Source: Synergistaceae bacterium (GTDB lineage Bacteria > Synergistota > Synergistia > Synergistales > Aminobacteriaceae). Taken from it: a stretch of 38,337 nucleotides of DNA. Positions 17,706 to 37,769 of the stretch are shown here, piece after piece. Under the pieces are notes generated by a model. It was not told the origin of the DNA and did no database searches. It saw nothing but the letters and a program-made list of their open reading frames with translations. A program made the position numbers and the translations under genes. Location of the stretch: the NCBI GenBank assembly GCA_031272035.1, contig JAISUO010000057.1, positions 1-38,337 of the forward strand, written 5' to 3'. Each line of letters begins with the position of its first letter. The stretch's first letter is position 1.

Positions 17706-18899
17706 ATGAGCGAAGCCGCCATGTCTGAATCCGATTCGAAACGATCGATTTCCAGGAGAGATTTTCGCTTCCTGCAACGGGAATTGAGCTGCTGGCGAAC
17801 TCTGGATCTGCTTTCCGAACAGCAGGCTCAGGCCCTTAAAGGACTGTACGAACCGAAACAGGGGTACATGTCCCGATTGATTATGGCTTTGGGCGCGGTG
17901 CTGATGGGACTCGGTTTTCTGAGTTACATCGCGGCGCACTGGATGGAATTCAGCCGAATATTCCAGGTCGCTCTGGTGATATTGGTTTATATGCTGTCGA
18001 TTTTTGCGGCGTGGTACATGGAGGAGGAGCTGCCCAAAACTTCGCGAGCCCTTTTGCTGCTGGGAAGTTTCATCTACGGTGGAGGCATTTTTTTGATCGC
18101 GCAGATTTTCAATGAGGGCGGTCATTACACGACGGCGCTTTTGTGGTGGATGATCGGAATTTTTCCAGCGGCGCTGCTGTTTCGGGACCGTTTGCAGCTC
18201 ACGCTGCTTCAGGTGATCGCTCTCGTTTATATTCATGGGTTCTTCTGGTCCGTCATCCGGTATTCTTACGGAGATGGCGACTTCATGAGCGTCCTGAAGA
18301 CCCTCGTCTGGCAGCCGGAGCCTCTGGCGGTTCTGTCGATTCTCTGGGCGCTCTGGTGGTTTATTGAAAGAAGAGGAAGCGTTGGTTTTCATCTGAACGT
18401 CTTTCTCGCGCTGAATATGATGACGATTCAGATTATCCGCTGTACGGATGACATGGCGCTGTTAATGATTTTTGGAGTTCTTGCGGGGTGCCTGTTCTGC
18501 CTTTGCGGTTTCGCCTTCCGGCAATGGCCGCTGGATGGGTGGGGCGTGACTCTGACGGGAGTTTGCGGGATTTCTCTGACGATTCGTGAGCTCTGGGGAT
18601 GGTCGCGCTGGAACTCTCTTTGGGGCTCTGTCGATCCCACTGTCGTCGCCGCTGTTGTGGTCTCCATTGTCCTGCTCTGGTGCATATACAAGGGCTCTAC
18701 GGGCGCGGTCGTCTTTTTTTGCGTCCTGATTCTGCGGTACTATTTCGATCGGTTTTACGACTTTATGCCCAAGGCGATGTTTTTTACCACGGGAGGGATC
18801 CTTCTGGTGGGGATGGGTTTTGGGCTTGAGAGAGTCCGAAAGCGCCGCAGGGCCTCCAAAGAACGGCAGGACCCGAAAAGAGAGGCGTCAGCGTCATGA
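17706..18899 (+). CDS. DUF2157-type multispan membrane protein
   Basis: 397 residues. The cytoplasmic N-terminus (about 1-53), ending in LSEQQAQALKGLYE, resembles the DUF2157 start in which a short helix precedes the first membrane span. About ten hydrophobic segments follow, from SRLIMALGAVLMGLGFLSYIA to the span before a basic tail (RVRKRRRASKERQDPKRE). Function is unknown for the family. It starts 13 nt after metG without a clear ribosome site; ATG 17721 is an alternative. Its stop overlaps the next start as ATGA, and the two families often occur together. Confidence 0.75.
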   Translation: MSEAAMSESDSKRSISRRDFRFLQRELSCWRTLDLLSEQQAQALKGLYEPKQGYMSRLIMALGAVLMGLGFLSYIAAHWMEFSRIFQVALVILVYMLSIFAAWYMEEELPKTSRALLLLGSFIYGGGIFLIAQIFNEGGHYTTALLWWMIGIFPAALLFRDRLQLTLLQVIALVYIHGFFWSVIRYSYGDGDFMSVLKTLVWQPEPLAVLSILWALWWFIERRGSVGFHLNVFLALNMMTIQIIRCTDDMALLMIFGVLAGCLFCLCGFAFRQWPLDGWGVTLTGVCGISLTIRELWGWSRWNSLWGSVDPTVVAAVVVSIVLLWCIYKGSTGAVVFFCVLILRYYFDRFYDFMPKAMFFTTGGILLVGMGFGLERVRKRRRASKERQDPKREASAS

Positions 18900-19456
18900 G
18901 ACGGGCCTTCAGATACCTTTTGGTTATATTGCTTCCTCTGGCGGTGCTTTTGACCAGGCCGGCGACCTCCGCTCTGGTGCTTGCTCTGGGGAAGGAAATT
19001 CGTTTGCCGGCCCTTCCCGTCGATCCCCGGGATATTTTTCGGGGTGATTACGTGGATCTGCGCTTCAATATCGAAGAAATTCCGGTGGAACAGGCGGACC
19101 CGACCCTCTTGCGACGCCTGAAGGAAGAAAAAGAGAAGACCGGCGATGCGGCTTTGTCGTCAGAGTGGGTGTATGTCGCTCTCGCGCCGGACGAAAAGGG
19201 AATTTATCGGCCTGTGCGCGTGACGGAGACTCCTTCGTCGGAGGAGATCTGTATTCGGGGACGAGTGGAGCTGTCTTACGATCAGTCGGAACTCTACATC
19301 GATTATGGAAGCTCTCTCAAACGTTTTTACGTGAAGGAAAACACCGGATTCGACCTGGAAAGAGCGGGCTGGGCGGGCAACCTGGAGGCTCTGGTTCGGG
19401 TATGGAAAAACAGAGCGGTGCTGGACCGGCTCGAAGTGACAGAGAAACGGGAATAA
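18896..19456 (+). CDS. GDYXXLXY-domain membrane-anchored protein
   Basis: 186 residues. An N-terminal hydrophobic segment (YLLVILLPLAVLLTRPATSALV) acts as signal or anchor and is followed by an exported domain containing VDPRDIFRGDYVDLRF, the motif naming the GDYXXLXY family (last aromatic is Phe here). Strongly coupled to the DUF2157 gene by a 4-nt overlap; the pair is commonly found together and probably forms one envelope system of unknown role. The gene ends 12 nt from the convergent outer-membrane protein gene. Confidence 0.8.
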   Translation: MRRAFRYLLVILLPLAVLLTRPATSALVLALGKEIRLPALPVDPRDIFRGDYVDLRFNIEEIPVEQADPTLLRRLKEEKEKTGDAALSSEWVYVALAPDEKGIYRPVRVTETPSSEEICIRGRVELSYDQSELYIDYGSSLKRFYVKENTGFDLERAGWAGNLEALVRVWKNRAVLDRLEVTEKRE

Positions 19457-19468
19457 AAAAGAGATGGA

Positions 19469-20050
19469 CTAAAAATATATTTTGAACTTGCCCTGAACGG
19501 AAAACCCGCTCAGGTCGTAATCTTTGACGTCGGAAATAAAGTTGTAGGCCGCTTCGATGTTAAACCACCGGGTGATGTCCATTCCCAGCATGAGACGTCC
19601 GCCCCAGGCGCCTCTCCATCCCGTATCGACCCCTGCCGCCCGATCCTCGAATCGTATTCCGTAACCTGCGAGCCCGATGCCGGCGTAGGGCCTCAGGATG
19701 CCCGCGTCGCTGAAGTTCCATCGCGCCTGGAGCCCCACGGGAATGATCCAGGCGTCGTTGTCGTCCTTCTCTCCATAGTAGAGTCCGAAATAGGGAGTGA
19801 GGTTGAATCCAGCCGCTTCGAAGCCGCCGGTCAGACTCTCCAGGTTCAGTGAAACCCCCAGGCTCCACCAGGCGTCTCCGAAGGCGTCCCGTGTTTTCGA
19901 GTCCGTGGGAAAATACCCATTGACGCCCGGCGACAGAAAAAACAGTTTCTCTTCCCCATGGCTTTCTTCCGCCCCGACGAAAAGAAACACAAGCAGCGTC
20001 ATCACGCAAAACAATATTCTCCGATTCGAAGGTCTGTGCTTATTACGCAT
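19469..20050 (-). CDS. Small outer-membrane beta-barrel protein
   Basis: 193 residues. A basic N-terminus and hydrophobic core (ILFCVMTLLVFLFVG) form a signal peptide, probably cut near ESHGEE. The remainder shows alternating aromatic/hydrophobic strands (FNLTPYFGLYYG, LRPYAGIGLAGYGI, GRLMLGMDITRWFNIEAAYNF) and ends KFKIYF, the terminal Phe expected for BAM-inserted barrels. An eight-stranded OmpW/OmpA-like fold is plausible from the size. It supports a diderm envelope. No strong ribosome site before ATG 20050. It is a lone gene convergent with the GDYXXLXY gene. Confidence 0.75.
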   Translation of the reverse strand: MRNKHRPSNRRILFCVMTLLVFLFVGAEESHGEEKLFFLSPGVNGYFPTDSKTRDAFGDAWWSLGVSLNLESLTGGFEAAGFNLTPYFGLYYGEKDDNDAWIIPVGLQARWNFSDAGILRPYAGIGLAGYGIRFEDRAAGVDTGWRGAWGGRLMLGMDITRWFNIEAAYNFISDVKDYDLSGFSVQGKFKIYF

Positions 20051-20317
20051 TTCTGTTTACCATATCTTTCTTTTGCCGGCCGATTTCTTTTTTTGCCGCC
20101 CGTTTCTCAATTTCTCATACCCATTACCCGTAACGTTGCTGTAATTTTGGCACCATCAGAAAAAATATGCAAGCCTGATCTCCATGAAATCCGTAGTTTG
20201 ATATTGCCTTTGTCTGTGGAGATTCGTAAAGTTATGGATATAATTCAAGGCGGTGTATCATGACGGATTTTCATGATGAATTTTCATGAGGAATGAACCA
20301 CGGCAGGGGGGAGAAAA
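20051..20317. other. Divergent intergenic region
   Basis: 267 nt between the outer-membrane protein gene and the secreted-protein gene. A TATAAT stands at 20239-20244 on the plus strand without a good -35, about 74 nt before the rightward gene. No minus-strand promoter is convincing. The right part holds the tandem repeat at 20267-20292. No reading frame or hairpin of note. Confidence 0.5.
20267..20292 (+). repeat. 13-nt tandem duplication
   Basis: Units 20267-20279 (ATTTTCATGATGA) and 20280-20292 (ATTTTCATGAGGA) differ at one base. They lie just upstream of the ribosome site of the secreted-protein gene. Confidence 0.8.
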
Positions 20318-20980
20318 TTGACAATACGGCTGAAGAGACAGTCGAAGGCGTACAGATTCCTGGCGTTCCTGGCGGGGGCGGTTCTGGCGGCGGGTTTGTT
20401 TTTGCCTGCCGGTTCCGCGTCGGCGTACGATATAGGAGGAACCTGGCTTTTGAAGGGCGGAGGATACGCGGAAAAGGGAATTTTGAGAACTGAACTGGAG
20501 GACAGCGGCAGTCTGGAGGTCCTGACGAAAACGGACAGCGGCGATCAGACGCTTTTGGGCTACAACGTTCAGGTGGAGCTCAACGCTTCGAAGCTCGGCA
20601 TCAACGCATGGGATTACAATAAAACGGTGACGCTGAGAACCCCCATTCCGATCCCCGGGGCAGATCCCACGCTGAACTCTCCTTTTGAACTGCCGGCGGT
20701 GACGGTGGATGAAATGACCTATCAGGTTACCTTCACTTCGACGACGTCCGGAACCGTTAAAATTTACGGAAATCTCGATTTGGACGTTATTGGGCGTGTT
20801 AAAATCAACTCCGAAAGCGCCATATGGAAAGAGGGAACGACGCCTCCTCATATTGAAGACAAAACCAGCGGCTGCAACGCGGGGTTTTTGTGTGCGGCAG
20901 GAATGATGACCTGTGTTTTTATCGTATTTCGGGGGCGCGGAAAGCTGCAGTCCTTTATTTTCAGGATTGAAAATCACTGA
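20318..20980 (+). CDS. Secreted hypothetical protein with Synerg-CTERM-like end
   Basis: 220 residues from TTG 20318, behind GGGGGGAG. A signal peptide (about 1-36, ASA before YDIGGTW) precedes a beta-rich domain with many Thr/Ser (about 37-180) that I do not recognise. The C-terminus has SGCNAG at 184-189, a hydrophobic stretch to about 204 and a basic cluster RGRGK at 205-209. That order matches the Synerg-CTERM putative sorting signal known from Synergistetes, as I recall it. Eleven further residues (LQSFIFRIENH) follow the basic cluster, which is unusual. Probably exported and processed or anchored at the surface. The function of the domain is unknown. Confidence 0.65.
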   Translation: MTIRLKRQSKAYRFLAFLAGAVLAAGLFLPAGSASAYDIGGTWLLKGGGYAEKGILRTELEDSGSLEVLTKTDSGDQTLLGYNVQVELNASKLGINAWDYNKTVTLRTPIPIPGADPTLNSPFELPAVTVDEMTYQVTFTSTTSGTVKIYGNLDLDVIGRVKINSESAIWKEGTTPPHIEDKTSGCNAGFLCAAGMMTCVFIVFRGRGKLQSFIFRIENH

Positions 20981-37504: not shown

Positions 37505-37580
37505 GCCGGTGTAGCTCAGTTGGTAGAGCAGCTGACTTGTAATCAGCAGGTCGTCCGTTCAAGTCGGATCGCCGGCTCCA
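37505..37580 (+). tRNA. tRNA-Thr (anticodon TGT)
   Basis: 76 nt with encoded CCA. Acceptor GCCGGTG/CGCCGGC, anticodon stem CTGAC.../GTCAG-type with loop CTTGTAA, giving TGT. First of three tRNAs in one transcript. Confidence 0.95.
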
Positions 37581-37599
37581 ATCAGTAAAAGTTTTAAGG

Positions 37600-37685
37600 G
37601 GTGGAGTGGCCGAGTGGTCAAAGGCAACAGACTGTAAATCTGTCGGCTAGCGCCTACGTTGGTTCGAACCCAACCTCCACCACCA
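37600..37685 (+). tRNA. tRNA-Tyr (anticodon GTA)
   Basis: 86 nt with encoded CCA and the long variable arm expected of bacterial tRNA-Tyr. Acceptor GGTGGAG/CTCCACC, anticodon loop CTGTAAA giving GTA, T loop TTCGAAC. Lies 19 nt after tRNA-Thr(TGT). Confidence 0.95.
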
Positions 37686-37693
37686 TTTTATAA

Positions 37694-37769
37694 GCCGACT
37701 TAGCTCAGCAGGTAGAGCACATCCATGGTAAGGATGGGGTCTCCGGTTCGAGTCCGGAAGTCGGCTCCA
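37694..37769 (+). tRNA. tRNA-Thr (anticodon GGT)
   Basis: 76 nt with encoded CCA. Acceptor GCCGACT/AGTCGGC, anticodon stem CATCC/GGATG with loop ATGGTAA, giving GGT. Lies 8 nt after tRNA-Tyr. Order Thr-Tyr-Thr before tuf recalls thrU-tyrU-glyT-thrT-tufB of enterobacteria, minus the glycine tRNA. Confidence 0.95.

Follow-up and report, generated by a model that had tools for sequence, protein, structure and literature searches.

The locus described here raises the question of whether an exported protein of the Synergistota, whose C-terminus resembles the Synerg-CTERM sorting signal and then runs on for a further 11 residues, carries a signal that is still in use or is a surface protein in decay. 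The gene lies in a window of 38,337 bases (the whole stretch of DNA that was analysed), which is contig C57 of the 3.18-Mb, 98.35% complete genome G000. The parts of the gene and of its product, here called the cargo protein, are as follows.

20306-20313, + strand: GGGGGGAG, 5' of the TTG start of the cargo gene
20318..20980, + strand: probably exported cargo protein of 220 amino acids with a Synerg-CTERM-like end, TTG start, supported by orthologues
20318..20425, + strand: signal peptide, residues 1-36, ending in ASA before YD, read by eye from the sequence
20426..20866, + strand: mature domain, residues 37-183 (about 147 amino acids), probably all-beta according to alignments and a low-confidence AlphaFold model
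20867..20884, + strand: signature motif SGCNAG, residues 184-189, with the Cys codon at 20873-20875, supported by orthologue conservation
20885..20929, + strand: hydrophobic segment FLCAAGMMTCVFIVF, residues 190-204, by Kyte-Doolittle
20930..20944, + strand: basic cluster RGRGK, residues 205-209, read from the sequence and aligned to KRGRKRRE of the same-genus orthologue in genome G002
20945..20977, + strand: extra 11-residue tail LQSFIFRIENH, lineage-specific by alignment with G002
20978-20980, + strand: stop codon

By eye, the N-terminus has several Lys/Arg residues at its start, followed by a hydrophobic core and the ASA-YD junction, and alignments of the mature domain place a GxW close to its start and a conserved W170 close to its end. 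The three-part C-terminus does exist, as does the extra tail after it, and the succession of SGCNAG, hydrophobic segment, RGRGK and 11 further residues reads just as the first-pass annotation of this DNA had described it. The best 15-residue stretch has a mean Kyte-Doolittle value of 2.43, the median over 59 orthologues being 2.03. No frameshift or stop was seen inside the cargo domain, and promoter-like and terminator-like sites around the gene showed no excess over shuffled sequences. With a probability of roughly three in four, the cargo protein is an exported, beta-rich protein that ends in a divergent Synerg-CTERM signal which still works. Since the tag has been conserved in evolution and the genome carries a predicted tag-cutting enzyme, this is most likely a surface protein in use and not one in decay.

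Orthologues and the Synerg-CTERM signature

A search across 185 genomes of the phylum matched 61, of which 59 are true carriers (the window genome and 58 others), comprising 48 of the 81 genomes in the window's taxonomic family and 11 from another family of the same order. The two that were set aside, G093 and G171, had matched solely through their Synerg-CTERM ends, and the counts likewise exclude an additional G100 fragment (L103) and a weak further match in G080. The Gly-Cys pair before the hydrophobic end (residues 185-186) is invariant in all 59 C-termini, a count drawn from unselected tails and alignments because the patterns used to locate the motif already demanded GC. The triplet is SGC in 56 of the 59, GGC in two and WGC in one, and a Gly stands at +3 from the motif Cys in 51. 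This conserved set, right before the hydrophobic segment, corresponds to SGC[ND]xG, the signature of Synerg-CTERM. The extra Cys and Met remarked on earlier in the hydrophobic part are indeed present, but they are no anomaly, since a second Cys within 20 residues after the motif Cys is found in 8/59 orthologues and a Met in 36/59. Beyond the best hydrophobic stretch, 13 of the 59 have a single Lys/Arg and one has none. A collection of named genomes yielded no relative when scanned with the cargo protein alone; scanned with an orthologue, it returned a single match, the orthologue's own record, which belongs to a Synergistaceae bacterium and bears out the earlier placement in the Synergistota.

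When tested against TIGR04564, the curated Synerg-CTERM model, the 34-residue C-terminal piece ending at RGRGK scored 7.3 bits, and since the cut-off is 22.5 the cargo protein falls outside Synerg-CTERM by that model. A 47-residue C-terminal piece gave no TIGR04564 match at E<=10, and an artificial consensus-like sequence, used as a control, scored 51.8 bits. The word "diverged" in the first-pass annotation was well chosen. The cut-off level is reached by 6 of the 59 orthologue tails, one of them from the same genus, and 53 fall below it, the limit of E<=8.5e-5 applied here being our own choice, set to match about 22.5 bits. Among ten tails examined, the three listed individually scored 25.7 (same genus), 23.2 and 23.1 bits, and at E<=10 the model matches 28 of 48 orthologue tails. 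No other sorting model matched the 59 tails at E<=8.5e-5; weak cross-matches to the MYXO-CTERM models all lie below cut-off. In the reverse test, a profile built from the 59 tails, the cargo protein's own included, matched the window genome at 15 further places (E<=1), 10 of which overlap TIGR04564 places, and it reached unrelated proteins of that genome with E values of 3e-5 (the best), 7e-5 and 2e-4. The two unrelated proteins caught by the full-family profile, those of G093 and G171 with frames of 364 and 841 amino acids, had likewise matched through their Synerg-CTERM ends only.

Ordinary Synerg-CTERM proteins are plentiful in the same genome. TIGR04564 has 20 matches there at E<=10, nine of them above cut-off, and individual reading of the C-termini left about 16 that are genuine, each Gly-rich before a Cys, a hydrophobic stretch, a Lys/Arg-rich cluster and the stop, with 21-30 residues after the Cys. 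The first-pass annotation had held that its proposal would fall if the model gave no hit and no other protein of the genome had the same ending; the cargo protein itself has no TIGR04564 match over the cut-off, but the genome has nine. The cargo protein shares with the Synerg-CTERM/MrtS system the Cys signature, the hydrophobic segment, the basic cluster, a probable export signal and the phylum. It differs in a score far below cut-off, in the extra Cys and Met, in the 11-residue extension and in having a single Gly ahead of the Cys, most other ends in its genome having two or more. As a separate observation, near-identical Synerg-CTERM ends sit close to contig ends (L003, L007 and L015, on contigs C5, C11 and C69 of G000), and for this reason paralogous copies may break the assembly and may hide further substrates.

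Constraint on the domain and freedom of the tail

The cargo domain is under purifying selection. Against two same-genus copies it has a pN of 0.24-0.26 and a pS of 0.58, computed with the signal/domain split at residue 41/42 (the likely cleavage site is 36/37), which corresponds to a dN of about 0.3 vs a dS of about 1.1, the latter near saturation. For the transmembrane part and tail after the motif, pN rises to about 0.56-0.58. In these comparisons, the domain and the motif are constrained and the tail is free to change. The G002 orthologue terminates immediately past its basic cluster. After that cluster, aligning the DNA of the two genes gives small gaps and, further on, no conserved sequence, so the 11-residue extension is lineage-specific. 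Across the 59 orthologues, between 20 and 52 residues follow the Cys (median 24), the length in G001 being a lower bound as its C-terminus ends at a contig edge. At least 34 are found in five, namely the cargo protein (34) and four others (34-52). The extra tail thus looks like tolerated variation. An overlap with the next gene, of the kind present in genus g16, was ruled out as its origin, as flhA starts about 240 bases downstream.

In g16, which belongs to the same family, the cargo gene stands between an AIRC-like gene and mreB, which is followed by flgF, flgG, flgA, flgH and flgI. The cargo frame overlaps the mreB start codon in 33 of 34 loci, by 14 bases in 25 and by 19 in eight, and in the remaining locus a 6-base gap separates the two (the 3' ends concerned are those of L060, L062-L076 and L085-L102). 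The ribosome-binding site of mreB lies inside cargo codons that coincide with the basic cluster or immediately precede it, and the cargo protein ends in, for example, FVRN or FCSGQI, which is the start of mreB read in another frame (either of two). The overlap and the internal ribosome-binding site suggest translational coupling. Because the final residues are the mreB start out of frame, the content of the tail in g16 is not selected at the protein level; the extreme C-terminal sequence is largely dictated by mreB, in keeping with a segment that is cleaved away and lost.

MrtS and the proposed fate of the cargo protein

The first-pass annotation knew of no established processing enzyme for the signal, and here the record can be amended. 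The window genome has a single CPBP (PF02517) protein, and it is MrtS, with 239.6 bits to NF040589 against a cut-off of 130 and with the catalytic motifs EETFYR and HALCN intact; the NCBIfam entry names MrtS as the Synerg-CTERM protease. This role of MrtS is itself a prediction, reportedly by Haft in 2024. The rhomboid-like protease that had been suggested as a partner was absent, with no rhomboid match in the 98.35% complete window genome and positive controls in 14 of 14 genomes. The type II secretin GspD is present (381.6 bits, cut-off 351.35).

Across the phylum, MrtS scores above cut-off in 125 of 185 genomes, in 70 of the 81 genomes of the family and in 54 of the 59 cargo carriers, the five carriers without it (G001, G031, G076, G086 and G100) being 64-88% complete. 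In the 115 well-assembled genomes (completeness of 90% or more, contamination of 5% or less), the cargo gene occurs in 36 of the 82 with MrtS (85 minus G106, G107 and G108, whose matches are below cut-off) and in none of the 33 without MrtS above cut-off, an association with a Fisher p of 3e-7 when genomes are treated as independent and relatedness is ignored. All 48 cargo carriers of the window's family have TIGR04564 matches. Four genomes that are 96-99% complete (G006, G023, G032 and G015) are without MrtS, TIGR04564 matches and cargo alike, and G060 (93% complete) has TIGR04564 matches yet neither MrtS nor cargo.

Other explanations were weighed against this evidence. The C-terminus could be a plain single-pass membrane anchor that is never processed, its conserved Cys serving a disulphide or a metal. 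The low scores of the cargo tail and of most orthologue tails, the thin basic cluster in some of them and the possibility of C-terminal anchors on other exported proteins would all agree with this. Such an anchor is nonetheless unlikely, as it would leave unexplained why conservation falls on the very residues that make up the Synerg-CTERM signature, why six tails score at cut-off level, why profile matches to the Synerg-CTERM ends of unrelated proteins are reciprocal and why the gene tracks MrtS. A different sorting system, such as rhombosortase/GlyGly-CTERM or the like, could be invoked on the strength of the sub-cut-off MYXO-CTERM matches, but, on the searches for rhomboid and CPBP proteases, is highly improbable in a genome that has no rhomboid and whose CPBP protein is MrtS and not of another Mrt subfamily, and in a family for which TIGR04564 is the sole match at E<=8.5e-5.

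Decay within the lineage would have the loss of a stop codon or a small indel past the basic cluster add the 11 residues, with a pseudogene to follow. The early end of the G002 protein and the small DNA gaps at that point are what such an event would leave behind, and the other Synerg-CTERM proteins of the genome have a stronger context around the motif. The domain, however, is free of frameshifts and stops and under purifying selection, SGCNAG is intact, four other orthologues have 34-52 residues after the Cys, and nearly all g16 loci end in an out-of-frame mreB start. Decay is therefore improbable and was rejected on the evidence of selection and orthologues; the "decaying" of the first-pass annotation does not agree with conservation across 59 genomes.

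For a diverged, functional signal, the closest experimental parallel lies in the MYXO-CTERM system. Among the papers searched, none uses "Synerg-CTERM", and the one directly useful paper was PMC11980579. Passages of that paper report that cleavage of TraA by MrtX was shown by experiment and depends on conserved cysteines, and they give as the authors' working model that lipidation precedes cleavage and that export is by type II secretion. In those passages, MYXO-CTERM and MrtX resemble the present case in an invariant Cys, a hydrophobic helix, a basic end and an intramembrane protease of the CPBP family; the signature and the phylum are different, and no match of a cargo-family tail to the MYXO-CTERM models reaches cut-off. 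GlyGly-CTERM and rhombosortase, as they appear in the same passages, share the tripartite architecture, but the cargo signal has an invariant Cys and the window genome lacks a rhomboid.

What the analysis shows directly is the anatomy of the gene, the conservation of its orthologues, the likeness of the tail to Synerg-CTERM, the presence and co-occurrence of MrtS, the presence of GspD and purifying selection. By analogy with MYXO-CTERM, we infer cleavage, lipidation and a surface location for the cargo protein. It would be exported by Sec, and signal peptidase would take off the N-terminal peptide, after which the C-terminal hydrophobic segment would anchor the protein to the inner membrane, leaving the basic cluster and the extra tail on the cytoplasmic side. 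The cysteine of SGC would then be modified, probably lipidated, and MrtS, a glutamic intramembrane protease, would cut just after or near it, so that the hydrophobic segment, the basic cluster and the tail are discarded. The protein would remain lipid-anchored and might reach the surface via the type II secretion system. The extra tail would be tolerated because whatever follows the cut is discarded and is nearly free to vary as long as it is hydrophobic and then basic.

It is possible, if doubtful, that this is a new, widespread exported family of the Synergistota (59/185 genomes) with a relaxed signal in which only SGC and hydrophobicity matter to MrtS, the part after the hydrophobic stretch being so free that in one genus the start codon of mreB and its ribosome-binding site have replaced it; that there are more MrtS substrates than annotated; and that the recurrent position ahead of mreB-flgFGAHI or flhA points to envelope assembly for cell shape or flagella. 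The true substrate set may be larger than annotated because the standard model misses most cargo members, and the list of likely MrtS substrates would gain a single-copy family from two families of the order, mostly missed by TIGR04564. Natural variation suggests that what counts in the signal is Gly-Cys and hydrophobicity, not the downstream part. The cargo protein would be a handy test substrate in this respect, since cleavage by MrtS in spite of the tail would leave the signature and the hydrophobic segment as the elements recognised.

The orphan domain and the gene neighbourhood

The domain had been called unrecognised, and so it stayed: neither the protein nor its domain had a noteworthy match in Pfam, NCBIfam or PDB sequences, and 47 family members gave no trustworthy match in Pfam. 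On these searches it appears to be an orphan that matches no known family. AlphaFold, in two runs with two sequences only, gave mean pLDDT values of 51.5 and 36.7, and the better model is nearly all-beta in the domain. Foldseek with this low-confidence model found nothing at E<=0.001, the best match being a LolA at E 0.023 and a TM of 0.20.

The cargo gene lies directly before flhA in five loci from three genera; in a fourth genus it precedes mreB-flgFGAHI. Its neighbours in other lineages are OsmC/met transport, a thioredoxin-like gene or an ArnD-like deacetylase. Because the neighbouring genes vary in this way, a function in flagella or cell shape is at most a lead, and co-occurrence with FlgI says little, as FlgI is nearly universal in the genomes examined (72 of the 81 in the family). 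The window genome's own mreB-flgFGAHI cluster (L168, on contig C110 of G000) has no copy of the cargo gene, so its position differs between the flagellar loci of related genera. In the second family, the ArnD-like deacetylase precedes the cargo gene (L156, L163 and L165), and in L156 the pair is itself preceded by a PmtA-like methyltransferase and a flavodiiron-like protein. Three further features of the window were noted.

17706-19456, + strand: overlapping pair of DUF2157 and GDYXXLXY genes
19469-20050, - strand: small protein resembling an outer-membrane beta-barrel (OMP_b-brl, under the gathering score), immediately upstream of the cargo gene
37505-37769, + strand: tRNA cluster Thr-Tyr-Thr

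In each of the three genomes of the genus, the OMP_b-brl-like gene is a neighbour of the cargo gene.
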